Source: Flavobacteriaceae bacterium (GTDB taxonomy: Bacteria > Bacteroidota > Bacteroidia > Flavobacteriales > Weeksellaceae). From it: DNA of 43,337 bases. Position 1 is the first letter of the stretch, and every line of letters begins with the position of its first letter. Under the pieces are notes generated by a model, which saw only the letters and a program-made list of their open reading frames with translations, was not told the origin of the DNA and did no database searches. Shown piece after piece: positions 240 through 13,526 of the stretch. The stretch covers positions 1 through 43,337 of the forward strand of contig JAGLAZ010000010.1 of the NCBI GenBank assembly GCA_018260565.1, given 5' to 3'. The translations under genes and the position numbers were made by a program.

Positions 240-1214
240 TTGGAAAAACCCATTACTCAATTCATTGAGAAATACTATTTACACTTTAATGCAGCGGCTC
301 TAGTAGATGCCTCTAAAGGCTATGTCGCACACCTAAAAGATGGCGGAAAAATGTTGATTAGCCTTGCTGGAGCAATGTCTACCGCAGAAATAGGGAAAAT
401 TCTTGCTCAAATGATTCGTGAGGACAAGGTGCAAATAATATCTTGTACAGGAGCGAATTTAGAAGAAGACTTGATGAACCTAGTGGCGCACTCACATTAT
501 GAACGTGTACCAAACTACCGCGATCTTACGGCACAAGATGAATGGAACTTACTGGAACGTGGGCTGAACCGTGTAACAGACACTTGTATTCCGGAAGAGG
601 AGGCGTTCCGCAGGCTACAAAAACATATTTTCAGTATCTGGAAGGATGCAGAGGAGGCAGGTGAGCGCTTTTTTCCGCATGAGTATATGTACAAAATGCT
701 ATTATCTGGCGTGCTGGAGCAGTATTATGAAATCCCAAAAGAAGACAGTTGGATGCTGGCAGCTGCGGAGAAAAATTTGCCAATTATAGTACCAGGTTGG
801 GAGGACTCTACAATGGGTAATATTTTCGCGAGCTATTGTATAAAGGGCGATCTAAAGCCATCTAGCATGAAATCTGGAATAGAATATATGATGTGGCTGG
901 CTGACTGGTACCGAGGAAATTGTGATGGAAAAGGGATTGGTTTTTTCCAAATAGGGGGTGGAATTGCTGGAGATTTCCCTATATGCGTCGTACCTATGCT
1001 ATACCAAGATATGGAAATGCATGATGTCCCATTTTGGAGTTATTTTTGCCAAATTTCGGATAGTACTACCAGCTACGGAAGTTATTCTGGAGCGGTACCT
1101 AACGAGAAAATTACTTGGGGGAAACTGGACATCAATACACCAAAATATATAGTGGAAAGTGATGCTACAATTTGTGCCCCGTTAATGTTTAGTTATATTT
1201 TAGAAAATTCTTAA
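240..1214 (+). CDS. deoxyhypusine-synthase-like protein
   Basis: This 324-residue protein belongs to the deoxyhypusine synthase family. Eukaryotic and archaeal members transfer an aminobutyl group from spermidine to a lysine of eIF5A. Bacteria lack eIF5A, so this homolog probably acts on a free polyamine or another small substrate. The C-terminal block SGAVPNEKITWGKL (about 283-296) matches the family's catalytic region, with the lysine in WGK at residue 295. The glycine-rich GGG at 239-241 is present, but the His-His pair that follows it in the human enzyme is replaced by Asp-Phe (245-246). No ATG precedes the conserved N-terminus, so the TTG at 240 is taken as the start; a stop codon lies just upstream at 225. 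The gene is alone on its strand and ends at a strong hairpin. Family assignment is secure; the substrate is unknown. Confidence 0.85.
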   Translation: MEKPITQFIEKYYLHFNAAALVDASKGYVAHLKDGGKMLISLAGAMSTAEIGKILAQMIREDKVQIISCTGANLEEDLMNLVAHSHYERVPNYRDLTAQDEWNLLERGLNRVTDTCIPEEEAFRRLQKHIFSIWKDAEEAGERFFPHEYMYKMLLSGVLEQYYEIPKEDSWMLAAAEKNLPIIVPGWEDSTMGNIFASYCIKGDLKPSSMKSGIEYMMWLADWYRGNCDGKGIGFFQIGGGIAGDFPICVVPMLYQDMEMHDVPFWSYFCQISDSTTSYGSYSGAVPNEKITWGKLDINTPKYIVESDATICAPLMFSYILENS

Positions 1215-2867: not shown

Positions 2868-3767
2868 TCACAATTTCCTCAGCTTTGCTTCTTTTCGGAG
2901 CCAAGTTTTAAATTCTTCTGCTATGATTCCAAAATATGTCCCTTTTTCTAAGTTACGATTGACTCCACATTTTGCTAAAAGAACTGTTCCAGATGCCACT
3001 TTCACGCCGGATGCCATCCCTACCTGACCCCATATGGTAACATCATCCCCAATATCGCAACAGCCGGCAATTCCAACTTGGGACGCGATAAGACATCTTT
3101 TCCCAATCCTGGTATCATGACCTATCTGTATTTGATTATCTAATACGGAGCCTTCACCAATAATGGTAGCATCGGTAACGCCTCTGTCTATGGTGCAACT
3201 GTTCCCTATTTCTACCTTGTCTTTTATAATGACATTTCCTACAGAAAGTAACCGATCATAACGCCCAGCTATTTTTCTGTAATAAAATGCGTCACCACCC
3301 AAAATTGTATTGGATTGAATAATTACATGATCTCCGATGATGCACGCATCGCCAATAACCACATTAGGATAAATTTTACAGTTTTTACCGATTTTTACCC
3401 CGCTGCCTAATACTGCGCTGGGATGTATAACAGTTCCCTCCCCTATTTCCTGATCGCCGAATGTCGCAGTAAAGTTATATTCGGGTGAAAAGTGCTTATT
3501 AATTATGTTAAAATCCCGGAACGGATCGTCCGATATCAGCAAAGATTTACCCTCGGGACAAGCTACCTCCTTATCTATTAAAATAATGGTGGCAGGTGAA
3601 GATAGTGCCTTTTCATAATATTTTGGATGATTCACAAATACGATATCTCCCTCTTTTACCCGATGAATTTCATTGGTACCATAAACTAAAAAATCCTCCG
3701 GACCAACGTATTTTGCCTTTATAATTTGAGCAATATCTTTTAATTTTTGGGCTTGAGGAAATTTCAT
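2868..3767 (-). CDS. second LpxD-like UDP-3-O-acylglucosamine N-acyltransferase
   Basis: This 299-residue left-handed beta-helix acyltransferase is related to LpxD, which adds the second hydroxyacyl chain to UDP-3-O-acyl-glucosamine in lipid A synthesis. Hexapeptide repeats run from about residue 105 to 265. The family's catalytic histidine is at residue 217 in IQIGHDTRIG. It is about 40 residues shorter than the canonical LpxD encoded at 6835-7851 and has a different N-terminal domain. It lies between efp and sucD, as in many Flavobacteriia. It may have a different acyl-chain or sugar preference, or act outside lipid A; the sequence does not decide this. Confidence 0.85.
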   Translation of the reverse strand: MKFPQAQKLKDIAQIIKAKYVGPEDFLVYGTNEIHRVKEGDIVFVNHPKYYEKALSSPATIILIDKEVACPEGKSLLISDDPFRDFNIINKHFSPEYNFTATFGDQEIGEGTVIHPSAVLGSGVKIGKNCKIYPNVVIGDACIIGDHVIIQSNTILGGDAFYYRKIAGRYDRLLSVGNVIIKDKVEIGNSCTIDRGVTDATIIGEGSVLDNQIQIGHDTRIGKRCLIASQVGIAGCCDIGDDVTIWGQVGMASGVKVASGTVLLAKCGVNRNLEKGTYFGIIAEEFKTWLRKEAKLRKL

Positions 3768-3973: not shown

Positions 3974-4537
3974 TTATTTTACCCGCTCCAGATAAGAACC
4001 GTCTTCCGTATTTACTTTAATCATATCGCCAGGCTCTATAAAAAGAGGTACCATAACGCGTGCACCGGTCTCTACTGTGGCATTTTTTAAGGCATTGGTG
4101 GCGGTGTTTCCTTTTACACCCGGATCTGCCTCCGTAACTTCTAGAAGGACTGTTGCTGGGATTTCTGCTGATAAAGGAGATTCATCCTCGTCTCTCATAA
4201 TGATAGTAACTTCTTCGCCAGCCTTCATAAATTGGGCGTTTTCGATCATTTCTTTGTTAAGATAAATTTGGGAGAAATCATCATTATTCATGAAATGATA
4301 GCCGTTATCATCCTCATAGAGATACTGAAATTTCCGGGTAATTACTTTTACTTCTTCTATTTTATGCCCTGCAGAGAAGGTATTATCTACCACTTTACCA
4401 TTGGTAACGGATTTTAATTTTGTACGCACAAATGCCGGTCCTTTTCCGGGTTTTACGTGCAGAAATTCTACCACTTTGTAGATATCGTTGCTATAATTAA
4501 TACATAATCCTTTACGGATGTCTGATGTAGTTGCCAT
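3974..4537 (-). CDS. efp: translation elongation factor P
   Basis: EF-P (187 residues) relieves ribosome stalling at consecutive prolines. The three-domain family pattern is complete: an N-terminal KOW-like domain (1-65), a central OB domain with YLYEDDNGYHFMNNDDFSQ, and a C-terminal domain ending in ETGARVMVPLFIEPGD. The tip of the modification loop reads VKPGKGPAF, with lysine 32 at the position that is beta-lysylated in E. coli. The modification used here, if any, cannot be read from sequence. It lies 89 bases after lpxA with no promoter box in the gap, so it is likely expressed with the lpx genes, and a terminator follows it. Confidence 0.97.
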   Translation of the reverse strand: MATTSDIRKGLCINYSNDIYKVVEFLHVKPGKGPAFVRTKLKSVTNGKVVDNTFSAGHKIEEVKVITRKFQYLYEDDNGYHFMNNDDFSQIYLNKEMIENAQFMKAGEEVTIIMRDEDESPLSAEIPATVLLEVTEADPGVKGNTATNALKNATVETGARVMVPLFIEPGDMIKVNTEDGSYLERVK

Positions 4538-6834: not shown

Positions 6835-7851
6835 TTACTGTTTATTTTTCTTTAATTCTTCCACATCTTGCGCGATTTTGCTCAGATTTTTGAAATGAAC
6901 ATAGTTTTTCCTATAATTATTGGCATCAAAAGCAGGGGAACCGTATAATATTCTGCCATCTCCTACAGTTTTATTGATACCGCTTTTAGCTTGGAATTTA
7001 TTATGATTTCCGATTTTTATATGTCCTACAATCCCCACCTGACCGCCAATCATATTCCAGTCTCCAATGTACGTAGAGCCGGCGATTCCCGTCTGAGCTG
7101 CAATTACATTATGTCTTCCAATTTTTACATTGTGGGCGATTTGAATTAAATTGTCCAGCTTGGTACCTTCGCCTATGTAAGTGCTTCCAAATGTGCCTCT
7201 ATCTATTGTACAATTGGAACCAATTTCTACATTATTTTCTATAACTACATTACCTAGTTGCGGAATTTTAGAAAAACCAGTTTCACCTGGTTGAAAACCA
7301 AAACCATCACTTCCTATTACGGTATTGCTGTGTATGATACAATTGTCTTTTACTATACAATAATCTAGAACTTTAACACCAGGCATTAGAACAACATTTT
7401 TCCCTATAATCGCGCTTTTACCCACATAACAATTGCCATGAAGAATAGAATTTTCTCCAATTTCTGCTTTGGGCTGAATGCTACAAAAATCACCTATATA
7501 GGTATTATCATGAACTTTTGCATCGGAAGCTATTGCTACATATTGACCTCGTCCTTTTGGCTGAGTATTTTGAGATGCATACCATTGAAGTAAATGCTGA
7601 AAGGTAGCATATGCATCTTCAACTAAAATAAGTGTCTTATTCTGCTGTGCAACTTGAAATAAATTTTTGGATACTATAAGGATAGTACATGGAGAAGACT
7701 GGATATAGGAAACAAATTTCTCCTGTGCAACAAAAGATAAGCAATCCTCTACTCCTTCTTCAATAGGTGCGACTCCAGTAATTTTGGCATCGGGATCTCC
7801 TATAATTTCGCCTTGAACAAGACCTGCAATTTGTGCGGCTGTGAACTCCAT
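6835..7851 (-). CDS. lpxD: UDP-3-O-acylglucosamine N-acyltransferase
   Basis: LpxD (338 residues) adds the N-linked 3-hydroxyacyl chain after LpxC. The N-terminal uridine-binding domain starts [20 protein letters not shown]. Hexapeptide repeats run from about 105 to 300, with the catalytic His240 in [14 protein letters not shown] three codons upstream (7858-7860) is in frame, but the ATG at 7849-7851 fits the family start. TATATTTG, a promoter-like box, sits at 7858-7865, so a transcript from it would be leaderless or nearly so. Read-through from the HD-domain gene 50 bases upstream is also possible. Confidence 0.95.
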
Positions 7852-7857
7852 ATTATG

Positions 7858-7865
7858 CAAATATA
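7858..7865 (-). promoter_or_regulatory. candidate -7 box (TATATTTG) just before lpxD
   Basis: The minus strand reads TATATTTG, an exact TAnnTTTG match, ending 6 bases before the lpxD ATG. If used, transcription would begin at or next to the start codon. No -33 element was found at normal spacing. Confidence 0.3.
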
Positions 7866-9903: not shown

Positions 9904-11025
9904 TTACTCTATTATATGAGGCACAAATCGGCTCGTATTCCCTGTAATAGGTTCAATACTTTCACGGATACCTATCCCTGCTGATTCCTGACCAATTACC
10001 CAACTACCAATAACGGGATATTTACCATCCATCGGATTAATTTCCACAAGATCTTGATATATATAGCCTTCCGCACCATAAACACCGGGCATGGAAGTAA
10101 TTAGTTGATTATTTTTAAACAAACTTACATTAGCCCCTTCTCTAGAATAAAAAGGTTTTTTTACAAAAGACATAAGATCTCTTTGTTCAAAATAGGATGG
10201 CAATAAAAAAGGGTGTCCAGGAAACAATTTCCATAAATACGGTAATAATGCCTTGGAGGAAGCAATGATTTTCCATGCAGGCTCTATCCATCGGGTTTCG
10301 GACATTGGAATATTTTTACCGAATAATTCCTGCACTAGCCATTCATAAGGATACAGTTTAAATACTGTGTCAATTAGTATATTCTCTTCATCCACAAACA
10401 TCTTAATTTCTTCTGCCCAGCCAATATTTTCAATAGGTAAAAAATCCGTAGTGAGACCAGCCTGAGTAGCAGTATCACGCAGGTATTCCAAGGTGGTAAC
10501 ATCCTCGATATTAGACATACCCGCAAAGTAAATATGCCCTTCGGAAATGTATGGTTTTAATCCCTCCCAAGTGGATATCAATTTTTCATGAATGGAATTA
10601 AACTGATCTTTCTCTGGAAATTTATCTTTTAACCAATACCATTGAATAACAGCTGCTTCATATAAGGAGGTAGGCGTATCTGCATTGCATTCTAGCATTT
10701 TAAGGTTTTTTCCGTCAAAGGCAAAATCAAATCTTGCATAGACAGAGGGCCACTCTTCTTCCCAGCTTTTTTCCACATAATGGTGAAACCATTCCGGAAT
10801 ATGGAACTTATAATATTCCCGGTGAGATATTACGTAATCTACTGCCTGAAGGACCATATCCCATAAAGTGACAGTAGCTTCTTCTAGTAGGGAAATTTCT
10901 TGTTTTGGAAAGGAATAATAGGCGGCTTCCTCCCAGTATGGGGTATCCAAGGAATGAAATCCAAATCCTAAATCCTCTAATTTTTGCTCCCAGTTTTCTC
11001 GTACTTGGCTATTTATTCTTTTCAT
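9904..11025 (-). CDS. YgiC-like glutathionylspermidine-synthase-family ATP-grasp protein
   Basis: This protein of about 373 residues belongs to the ATP-grasp family of the C-terminal domain of glutathionylspermidine synthase, like E. coli YgiC and YjfC. ARFDFAFDGKNLKMLECNAD followed by TPTSLYEAAVIQWYWL matches the family core. FVKKPFYSREGANVSL and GYIYQDLVEINP form the ATP-binding end. The reading frame is open up to an ATG at 11100, but the ATG at 11025 fits the family (MKRINSQVRENWEQKL) and lies one base after the preceding gene's stop. Enzymes of this group lack the amidase domain, and their physiological ligation reaction is not established. It is the last gene of a three-gene unit with two lipoproteins. 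Confidence 0.85.
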   Translation of the reverse strand: MKRINSQVRENWEQKLEDLGFGFHSLDTPYWEEAAYYSFPKQEISLLEEATVTLWDMVLQAVDYVISHREYYKFHIPEWFHHYVEKSWEEEWPSVYARFDFAFDGKNLKMLECNADTPTSLYEAAVIQWYWLKDKFPEKDQFNSIHEKLISTWEGLKPYISEGHIYFAGMSNIEDVTTLEYLRDTATQAGLTTDFLPIENIGWAEEIKMFVDEENILIDTVFKLYPYEWLVQELFGKNIPMSETRWIEPAWKIIASSKALLPYLWKLFPGHPFLLPSYFEQRDLMSFVKKPFYSREGANVSLFKNNQLITSMPGVYGAEGYIYQDLVEINPMDGKYPVIGSWVIGQESAGIGIRESIEPITGNTSRFVPHIIE

Positions 11026-11026
11026 A

Positions 11027-11359
11027 TTAAGAAGATGCTCGGAATCCTGTTCTTCCAAATCCTCCACGAACGGAAGTGCCTTTGTAAGAGTTTCGGCCAT
11101 AGTTTGACTCAGGATTTATCTGTCTGCTCTGGTAACCTCTCTGGTAACCCATTGGTCCCATATACCCATACGGGGAAAAAGCATAATACATTAAAAGGCC
11201 CGGTAGGAAACTGTGGGTACGGGAATATCCAGCAGTGGAATCCGAACGCATATAAACTTCCTTCTTGCTACTTCCCCATTCTTTTTCTTTCGGTTTATCA
11301 TTGCATGCTATCAACAGGCTTGTCATAAAAAGTAGCTCGATATTTTTAGATTTTTTCAT
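11027..11359 (-). CDS. small YgiB/DUF1190-like lipoprotein
   Basis: This 110-residue protein has a lipoprotein signal (MKKSKNIELLFMTSLLIAC, lipobox LIAC, Cys19). A Gly/Tyr/Pro/Met-rich middle (YYAFSPYGYMGPMGYQRGYQ) and the tail TSVRGGFGRTGF follow. The RGGFG tail and Gly/Met-rich middle resemble E. coli YgiB (DUF1190), whose gene lies next to ygiC. Here too the gene directly precedes a ygiC-like gene, with one base between them. The homology is proposed from memory of those features and position and is not certain. Its function is unknown; an envelope-attached partner of the ATP-grasp enzyme is a reasonable guess. Confidence 0.7.
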   Translation of the reverse strand: MKKSKNIELLFMTSLLIACNDKPKEKEWGSSKKEVYMRSDSTAGYSRTHSFLPGLLMYYAFSPYGYMGPMGYQRGYQSRQINPESNYGRNSYKGTSVRGGFGRTGFRASS

Positions 11360-11360
11360 A

Positions 11361-11684
11361 CTACTGCCCAGAAACTGTTATAAAGTGTTTATAATCTTTC
11401 TTTTGCTTTATTTTCGTACCACCTGAATTGGATTCTACTTCAATCATGGTATCACCTAATTGCGGAATAGTGTCATTGTAGATAACATCCTTCACTTTTT
11501 TATTATCTTTCCATATGCTGTGCTTCGTTGTAAGTATTACAGCATCTTTTACATTTTTAGAACTGATAACAGTTTCCACCGAACCGGATTTATCCACATT
11601 ACTTAGCGGCTGCTCTTGCTCTTCCTCACTATTACATTGGATAGTAATTAGAATGAAGACCATTGCAGGATATATAAATTTCAC
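11361..11684 (-). CDS. small lipoprotein of unknown function
   Basis: This 107-residue protein starts at a GTG (11682-11684) and has a short lipoprotein signal (MKFIYPAMVFILITIQC, Cys17). It continues with an acidic stretch (NSEEEQEQPL) and a polar, lysine-rich body. An internal ATG would leave too short a signal peptide, so the GTG is preferred. I recognise no domain. It is the first gene of the three-gene unit with the YgiB-like and YgiC-like genes, one base from the next. This position suggests a shared envelope process. Confidence 0.65.
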   Translation of the reverse strand: MKFIYPAMVFILITIQCNSEEEQEQPLSNVDKSGSVETVISSKNVKDAVILTTKHSIWKDNKKVKDVIYNDTIPQLGDTMIEVESNSGGTKIKQKKDYKHFITVSGQ

Positions 11685-11972: not shown

Positions 11973-13526
11973 ATGCCCGACAAAATTCTCTGGATAGATG
12001 ACGAAATAGATTCATTAAAACCCCATATAGTATTTTTAGAAAGTAAAGGCTATAAAGTAACAGGTCTAAATAATGCTAATGATGCCTTAGACTTATTAGA
12101 ATTAAAAACCTTCAATGCTTTACTATTAGATGAAAGTATGCCAGGCATCTCTGGACTCGAAGCTATACCCTTAATAAAGGCTTTGGATAGCAGTATAAAG
12201 ATCATAATGGTTACTAAAAATGAGGAGGAACACATTATGGAGGAAGCCATAGGCTCTGAAATTGCGGATTATATCTTAAAACCTGTAAATCCCAAACAAG
12301 TTCTTCTTTCTCTTAAAAAAAATCTGCAAGAGTTGGATTTAGTGGAGAGAAAAACCGTAACCGAATACCAGCAATCCTTCCGAATGCTTAGTCAGGAACT
12401 TAGTAATCTAAGAACGCACGAAGACTGGGCGGAGCATTATAAAAAACTTCTTCATTGGGAGATAAAATTTGATAAAATAGTAGATCATGATTTTATAGAA
12501 TTACTCCAAAATCAAAAAGAGGAAGCCAATATCCACTTTTGTAAATTCATCGAGCAAGAATATCCTCGCTGGCTACGGGAAATAGACAAACCCATCATGA
12601 GCCATACCGCATTCCGCGATGTGGTACATCCAGTTTTAAAGCAAAATAATACCATGCTTCTCATGATTGATAATTTACGCTATGACCAATGGCGTATGAT
12701 AGAGCCACTATTTACACGATATTATAATAAGGTAGAAGAATTGGCCTATTATAGTATCCTACCTACTGCTACTCAATATGCGAGAAACGCCTTCTTTGCT
12801 GGACTATTACCATCAGAAATTGAAAAAAAATTCCCTAGAGAATGGAGAAATGACAATGATGAAGGTAATAAAAATGAGTTTGAAAAAGATTTCCTGAGAG
12901 ATCAACTGTTTCGATTGGGGATGGGTAATGTAAGTCAGAAATATTATAAAATTCTGAATGCAGATTTTGAGAGTAAAGTAGCTGATGATTTTGCTAATTT
13001 GAAAAAAAATGGGCTTATTACCATTGTTTATAATTTCATTGATATCCTATCGCATGCTAAAACGGATAATGTCATCGTAGATCAACTGATTCGGGATGAT
13101 AAAACATTCCGATCTCTTACATACAATTGGTTTGAAAATGCATCTATTTTAAAAATAATTAAACAAGCTGCTGAAGAAGGGTTAAGCCTTATCATCACCA
13201 CGGATCATGGTATGATAGATGTTAAAAAGCCTAGCCAAGTAGTAGGAGATAGAGAAACTTCTACCAATATCCGGTATAAAACAGGGAAAAGTCTTACCTA
13301 TGACAATAAAGATGTATGGGCAGTTACGAATCCGGAGAGTATCTTTTTACCTAAAAGTAATATAAGCAGCAGTTATATTTTTGCTAAAAATCATGTATTT
13401 TTTGCCTACCCTAAAAACTACCATCAATTTGTTAATTATTACAAAAACACCTATCAGCACGGCGGAATCAGTATGGAAGAATGCATTATCCCAATTATAA
13501 CATTGGAACCAAAATCTTTAGTATGA
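11973..13526 (+). CDS. porX: PorX: response regulator with PglZ domain
   Basis: PorX (517 residues) is the response regulator that, with the kinase PorY, controls type IX secretion genes in Bacteroidota. The receiver domain (about 1-120) has the acidic pair D9-D10, the phosphoacceptor Asp53 in LLLDESMPG, and a conserved KPVNP. The C-terminal PglZ domain belongs to the alkaline-phosphatase superfamily. It shows MLLMIDNLRYDQW, ILPTATQYARNAFFAGLLPS with its Thr, and the metal-binding TTDHGMID (near 410). PorX of Porphyromonas has been reported to bind zinc and act as a phosphodiesterase on oligonucleotides. The gene overlaps the exonuclease III gene by ATGA. Confidence 0.95.
   Translation: MPDKILWIDDEIDSLKPHIVFLESKGYKVTGLNNANDALDLLELKTFNALLLDESMPGISGLEAIPLIKALDSSIKIIMVTKNEEEHIMEEAIGSEIADYILKPVNPKQVLLSLKKNLQELDLVERKTVTEYQQSFRMLSQELSNLRTHEDWAEHYKKLLHWEIKFDKIVDHDFIELLQNQKEEANIHFCKFIEQEYPRWLREIDKPIMSHTAFRDVVHPVLKQNNTMLLMIDNLRYDQWRMIEPLFTRYYNKVEELAYYSILPTATQYARNAFFAGLLPSEIEKKFPREWRNDNDEGNKNEFEKDFLRDQLFRLGMGNVSQKYYKILNADFESKVADDFANLKKNGLITIVYNFIDILSHAKTDNVIVDQLIRDDKTFRSLTYNWFENASILKIIKQAAEEGLSLIITTDHGMIDVKKPSQVVGDRETSTNIRYKTGKSLTYDNKDVWAVTNPESIFLPKSNISSSYIFAKNHVFFAYPKNYHQFVNYYKNTYQHGGISMEECIIPIITLEPKSLV

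Follow-up and report, generated by a model that had tools for sequence, protein, structure and literature searches.

GspSA couples spermidine to the C-terminal glycine of glutathione and, like trypanothione synthetase, acts on a small peptide. For two further ATP-grasp enzymes, YgiC and YjfC of E. coli, Pederick et al. are said to have observed peptide-spermidine ligase activity in 2023. Both carry the RefSeq product name peptide--spermidine ligase; no report of their native peptide was found in the literature that we searched, outside which the primary paper (Pederick 2023) falls. A passage in a G3 paper describes YgiC as being without glutathionylspermidine synthase activity (PMC12506659). 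Larger operons of DUF1190, DUF350, PspA and polyamine genes, containing an ATP-grasp enzyme related to GspSA and a DUF1190 lipoprotein, are linked to envelope stress in parts of a 2024 study (PMC11237479). The pairing of a lipoprotein with YgiC is in itself already known; the Bacteroidota form described here, with an extra lipoprotein (LP1) and a reduced partner (LP2), is a variant that none of the Pfam and NCBIfam models searched gives a name to.

In the window, i.e., the whole stretch of 43,337 nucleotides that was analysed, the ORF listing places LP1, LP2 and a YgiC-type ATP-grasp gene in head-to-tail order on the minus strand (Table 1). The preliminary description had the three genes separated by single bases, which holds for LP1 and LP2 (position 11360) and for LP2 and YgiC (position 11026) only if the ligase starts at the internal ATG at 11025 (MKRINSQ...), as the longest ORF runs 74 bases into LP2. 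Most relatives begin at this internal ATG (M[KE]R...), which favours the short start. The flanking genes, encoding a glycosyltransferase-25 protein and PorX, lie on the opposite strand and the unit therefore stands alone; no PspA, DUF350, DUF2491, channel, AdoMetDC or spermidine synthase genes were found beside it in the window, and a promoter and terminator scan gave no excess over shuffled sequences. PorX, the response regulator of type IX secretion, is divergent from the unit (11973-13526, plus strand; NF052313, 740.8 bits). The window also holds a lipid A gene cluster with two distinct LpxD-like hexapeptide proteins (2868-3767 and 6835-7860, both on the minus strand).

Table 1 Features of the three-gene unit and of a possible polyamine gene in the window.
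Feature	Position	Strand	Evidence or remark
LP1, 107-aa lipoprotein	11361-11684	-	ORF, GTG start
LP2, 110-aa lipoprotein	11027-11359	-	ORF
YgiC-type ATP-grasp amide ligase, 373 aa	9904-11025	-	PF03738 match; longest ORF reaches 11100
LP2 C-terminal tail, RGGFGRTGFRASS-COOH	11030-11068	-	Proposed as recognition and acceptor site; YgiC partners of two phyla have its motif and small last residues in common
Deoxyhypusine/homospermidine-synthase family gene	240-1214	+	PF01916, E 1e-39; outside the operon

The identification of the largest gene product as a YgiC-like ATP-grasp ligase is borne out by its match to Pfam PF03738, which covers the full length of the protein (profile 1-371, E 1e-138, 462.9 bits vs. 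a cut-off of 29.3). Its nearest solved structures in the PDB are E. coli YgiC (7uk8, E 4e-94; 44% identity over 372 columns) and YjfC (7uk6, E 6e-79; 41% over 369 columns), followed by trypanothione synthetase and GspSA (GspSA E 7e-25). The ligase stands alone, without an amidase domain. All eight GspSA residues compared (R316, D318, E330, N332, K498, K533, R538 and R598), which we take to have ATP, Mg and acyl-phosphate roles in catalysis or substrate binding, are kept as R98, D100, E112, N114, K258, K290, R295 and R354. Each is conserved in 122-123 of 123 aligned relatives, and at four positions the only departure is an alignment gap. The window enzyme thus belongs with YgiC and YjfC as a true homologue, its active site is intact, and peptide-spermidine ligase activity is predicted for it. 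To speak of unknown chemistry, as had been done before, was an overstatement, the E. coli enzymes being reported as peptide-spermidine ligases under their RefSeq name.

Both small proteins had been taken for lipoproteins, in agreement with signal sequences that end in a Cys invariant in relatives: ...TIQC in LP1 (C17, 48/48 aligned relatives) and ...LIAC in LP2 (C19, 32/32 aligned members), each a predicted lipobox. LP1 is modelled by AlphaFold2 as a small all-beta domain of five strands (mean pLDDT 81.6), and its C-terminal end is conserved in relatives as KKDYxFYITVQ/K. No domain had been recognised in it at the outset, and we obtained the same outcome with structure and profile searches, the model having no match in the PDB at E<=0.001 and the family-level profile matches looking signal-peptide driven. 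The idea that LP1 corresponds to the N-terminal domain of the longer Bacteroidota partners described below, split off as a separate gene, is unsupported, with a probability of only 12.7% in profile comparison. LP2 is predicted to be disordered (AlphaFold2 mean pLDDT 49) and is nonetheless conserved, with a mean column identity of 66% in the alignment of 32 members. The conservation includes the signal peptide, where the modal residue accounts for 72% in LP2 vs. 41% in LP1. A start of the form M-K/R-K/R-S/T is found in 75/80 LP2 proteins (the best 80 of 115 relatives) vs. 3/79 LP1 proteins, and a similar basic-S/T motif occurs in 15/21 DUF1190 proteins. The Gly/Met/Tyr-rich stretch and the RGGFG tail noted earlier in the 110-aa protein are both present, and the tail is rich in G, R, Y and S.

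The likeness of LP2 to E. coli YgiB that had been pointed out on these grounds is confirmed in layout, i.e., in an RGGFG-type tail with small last residues. LP2 as a plain member of Pfam DUF1190 (PF06693) is ruled out, since none of the 32 aligned members, the window protein included, matches the model; across the phylum, PF06693 found nothing in 395 genomes. In direct comparison of LP2 with DUF1190, hhalign gave scores of 30.8 over the full length and 28.2 over the mature part, which exceed the best column-shuffled controls (18.0 of 40 and 17.6 of 60, respectively), but the corresponding probabilities are only 44% and 41% and the similarity rests mainly on the tail. The profile similarity is thus weak yet above controls. 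The central Cys-containing region present in DUF1190 sequences is absent from the LP2 alignment. Longer Bacteroidota partners of YgiC match both DUF1190 (94%, on the central motif) and LP2 (64-86%) in profile comparison and may therefore bridge the two. Overall, we class LP2 as YgiB-like in layout and not as a DUF1190 member.

Linkage to the ligase gene is very strong. PF03738 occurs in 14 of 246 genomes of the window's order, all of one family, and the LP2 profile A1 matches exactly the same 14, although seven of these supplied rows of A1, so that only the other seven matches and the 232 absences are independent of profile building. LP1 and LP2 precede YgiC in 13/13 of the relatives drawn first. 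In a later, larger draw, 28/395 genomes matched, 27 of them above the cut-off; LP1-LP2-YgiC was found in 11 of the 12 newly found genomes above it; in the remaining one (G635), another lipoprotein precedes YgiC. The unit is also carried by a member of another family of the window's order (G977, locus L230), while the single match below the cut-off (G1001) was rejected because it is not a YgiC unit. A scan of genome collections extended the range of LP2, its best 80 of 115 relatives coming from Chryseobacterium and other Weeksellaceae, Chitinophagaceae and unclassified Bacteroidota. Within these best 80, LP1 lies directly upstream of LP2 in 79/79 loci with at least 450 bases there, and YgiC lies downstream in 75/77 loci with at least 1300 bases there, in 74 of them within 200 bases. 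Both exceptions are Segetibacter, and each of these genomes has one YgiC elsewhere. The two Segetibacter loci (L150 and L162) show LP1-LP2 followed by a convergent cyanophycinase-like gene and then a cyanophycin-synthetase-like gene, both named from sequence reading.

Class-wide, PF03738 was found in 32/395 genomes. Outside the window's family, the LP1-LP2 pair is present in 6 of 30 class loci (L073, L074, L079, L080, L082 and L083), in most others the gene upstream of YgiC encodes another exported protein with a Gly/Ser/Arg-rich tail, and no tailed partner is visible there in four (L067, L078, L087 and L088). The claim that lipoprotein and ATP-grasp genes stay linked across distant phyla was upheld in Pseudomonadota as well: by stop-to-stop search, a YgiC-family gene lies on the same stretch, upstream or downstream, in 18/20 plasmid DUF1190 loci, and no YgiC match was obtained in the other two (L185 and L202). 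Several of these plasmid loci also carry DUF350, DUF2491 and PspA genes. At one locus, from Halomonas sp. PA16-9 (L204), the YgiC-family gene beside DUF1190 is split over several frames, which suggests a broken gene or sequencing errors. As judged from gene order, LP1-LP2-YgiC is a conserved three-gene unit in Bacteroidota, with a conservation far beyond chance.

The partners of YgiC range from 81 to about 255 residues and have little in common besides their tails. A strict R[GSQ]G[FYW]G motif at most 75 residues from the stop was found upstream of YgiC in 16/31 loci vs. 1/3841 other ORFs of the same stretches; the tail sequences are related by descent and therefore neither these nor the following counts are independent, and no probability is claimed. 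The last two residues of LP2 are SS in 73, GS in four and GG in three of the best 80 of 115 relatives, i.e., small in 80/80. The 21 distinct DUF1190 proteins end in GG in 18 cases (the rest in GS, GS and CG), and GG makes up 29/609 positions within their tails. By a cruder composition rule, two terminal residues drawn from G, S and A were found in 19/23 partners vs. 201/851 internal pairs and 56/704 other ORFs; this rule missed the visible partners of L076, L077, L082, L084, L093 and L095 and picked an incorrect ORF at L092. Partners without two small terminal residues end in PR (L077), GE (L080 and L081), HA (L084) and RS (L089). Judging from these sequences, YgiC partners with dissimilar bodies in Bacteroidota and Pseudomonadota tend to have R-G-G-F-G and two small residues at the C-terminus.

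Neither spermidine synthase (PF01564) nor carboxynorspermidine decarboxylase (nspC) was found in the window genome, and the amine used may therefore not be spermidine itself. The genome has three PF02784 decarboxylases, one of them arginine-decarboxylase-like, and the PF01916 gene of the window is a possible polyamine source for the unit, a link that we infer. This gene (start at 240 or 243) lies 2.8 kb from the EF-P gene (3974-4537, minus strand), and EF-P is the bacterial relative of the protein that is hypusinated in eukaryotes. Three loci (L093, L094 and L231, the last from G635) show a second type of YgiC unit, in which a lipoprotein ending in SYGG and YgiC are joined by what appears to be an AdoMet decarboxylase; a membrane spermidine-synthase-like gene, so named from sequence reading, lies divergently next to this unit.

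Expression data bear on the role of the unit. In the reported part of a study of Flavobacterium columnare delta-sppA, the 21 induced genes include V8245_RS10380 and RS10385, both annotated as lipoprotein, and ygiC, together with algU, lemA and macAB-tolC (PMC13236525). The consecutive numbers fit the two-lipoprotein layout, from which we infer that the two genes are LP1 and LP2. A role of the unit in envelope stress is likely.

Taken by sequence, two predicted exported lipoproteins and a YgiC-type ligase that is predicted to be cytosolic and has a complete active site form a unit. Its best explanation, put forward tentatively, is that it represents the Bacteroidota version of E. coli ygiB-ygiC and yjfM-yjfC and that the ligase joins the C-terminus of LP2 to a polyamine. 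In the cytosol, the ligase would convert the carboxylate at the C-terminus of the LP2 precursor into an acyl phosphate and couple it to a polyamine, much as GspSA uses the glycine at the end of glutathione; the amine would be spermidine in E. coli and possibly homospermidine, putrescine or agmatine in the window host. The position of the ligase beside an exported protein that keeps two small last residues and a marker motif suggests that the C-terminus is the acceptor. Since LP2 is exported and the ligase cytosolic, modification would have to come before export, and recognition of the precursor by a cytosolic enzyme would account for the conservation of a disordered protein, signal peptide included. 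The flexible LP2, with its RGGFG...SS tail, would then be exported as a lipoprotein bearing a positively charged polyamine end. More speculatively, this end may, under envelope stress, act on some part of the envelope, be it membrane, LPS or peptidoglycan, with LP1 as an envelope partner or binding platform for LP2. Several points stand against the tail as substrate: a terminal G or S in a Gly/Ser-rich tail could have other causes, LP1 also keeps its last residues yet is no proposed substrate, and the partners without a small dipeptide and the loci without a tailed partner listed above do not fit.

The known characterised relatives of the ligase, GspSA and trypanothione synthetase, act on small peptides, and it is quite conceivable, though short of probable, that YgiC likewise yields a soluble small peptide-polyamine conjugate resembling glutathionylspermidine, with the lipoproteins serving as envelope sensors or binders in the same stress response and not as substrates. 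The genes beside L093, L094 and L231 that resemble SpeD and a membrane spermidine synthase, assigned by sequence reading and not by profile, would fit such a product, as would the association of the pair elsewhere with DUF350, DUF2491 and PspA genes (in part from sections of PMC11237479); neighbours of these kinds suggest metabolite or membrane sensing. What a small conjugate leaves unexplained is why the partners should have little in common beyond an RGGFG tail with two small residues at the C-terminus, and why the disordered LP2 is strongly conserved at both ends.

These features of the tail could also be those of a binding element, for polyanions, LPS, self-association or ligase docking, with another envelope component as the target of the ligase. 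RGG motifs in disordered proteins of other systems bind polyanions such as RNA, as stated in a section of one paper (PMC12774642), and the composition of the LP2 tail is in keeping with this. Nevertheless, we regard such a role as unlikely, given that conservation extends to the very last two residues in both LP2 (among the best 80 of 115 relatives) and DUF1190, which goes beyond the needs of binding. Least probable is that the genes are merely co-transcribed in an envelope-stress regulon without a direct biochemical link. The co-induction of the lipoprotein genes and ygiC in F. columnare delta-sppA would be accounted for in this way, and part of an E. coli study gives tolC-ygiA-ygiB-ygiC as one operon, in which BaeR altered only tolC (PMC2731931). 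Shared regulation alone is difficult to reconcile with the joint presence or absence of LP2 and ligase in relatives of one family (14/246 genomes) and with their staying in the same genome where they are split, as in Segetibacter.

If the LP2 tail is indeed the acceptor, the reading might be extended to the family as a whole, although we consider this extension rather doubtful: YgiC-family enzymes would be protein C-terminal polyamine ligases acting on the next-door lipoprotein with its RGGFG tail and two small last residues, and both Bacteroidota and Pseudomonadota would have envelope lipoproteins with a polyamine tail, among them YgiB and YjfM of E. coli. The tail shared by unlike partners in two phyla makes the question of the native substrate of YgiC and YjfC testable. 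Should the proposal be true, it would describe a novel protein modification in bacteria, connected with envelope stress; should it be false, LP1 and LP2 remain a well-bounded partner family of a widespread ligase, missed by the Pfam and NCBIfam models searched.

Products of the proposed type exist, since SUMO in yeast and mammals carries spermidine on its C-terminal carboxylate according to one paper (PMC12270671). The attachment corresponds to that proposed for LP2 by analogy only; SUMO is conjugated by E1 and E2 enzymes and not by an ATP-grasp ligase, and the two systems are unrelated by descent. With GspSA, the window ligase shares ATP-grasp homology and the eight active-site residues, but it differs in having no amidase domain and reaches only 130 bits against the NCBIfam GspSA equivalog model (cut-off 882). 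The operons of PMC11237479 likewise combine a GspSA-related ATP-grasp enzyme with a lipoprotein, whereas a Bacteroidota two-lipoprotein version, a shared C-terminal tail and the lipoprotein as a substrate are not among the features described in the available parts of that study. Closest are the E. coli ygiB-ygiC and yjfM-yjfC pairs, in which, as here, a lipoprotein gene lies directly upstream of a YgiC-type ligase gene. YgiB and YjfM resemble LP2 in a basic K/R-S/T signal start, a centre of the F-M-P-x-x-x-Y type and an RGG[FY]G tail, which ends in GG in the E. coli proteins and in SS in LP2. Compared with E. coli DUF1190, LP2 is half as long, is without the central Cys-containing region and is unmatched by the Pfam model. 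In contrast to the E. coli pairs, the Bacteroidota unit in the window has no PspA, DUF350, DUF2491 or channel genes beside it, and it places a second lipoprotein, LP1, before LP2.
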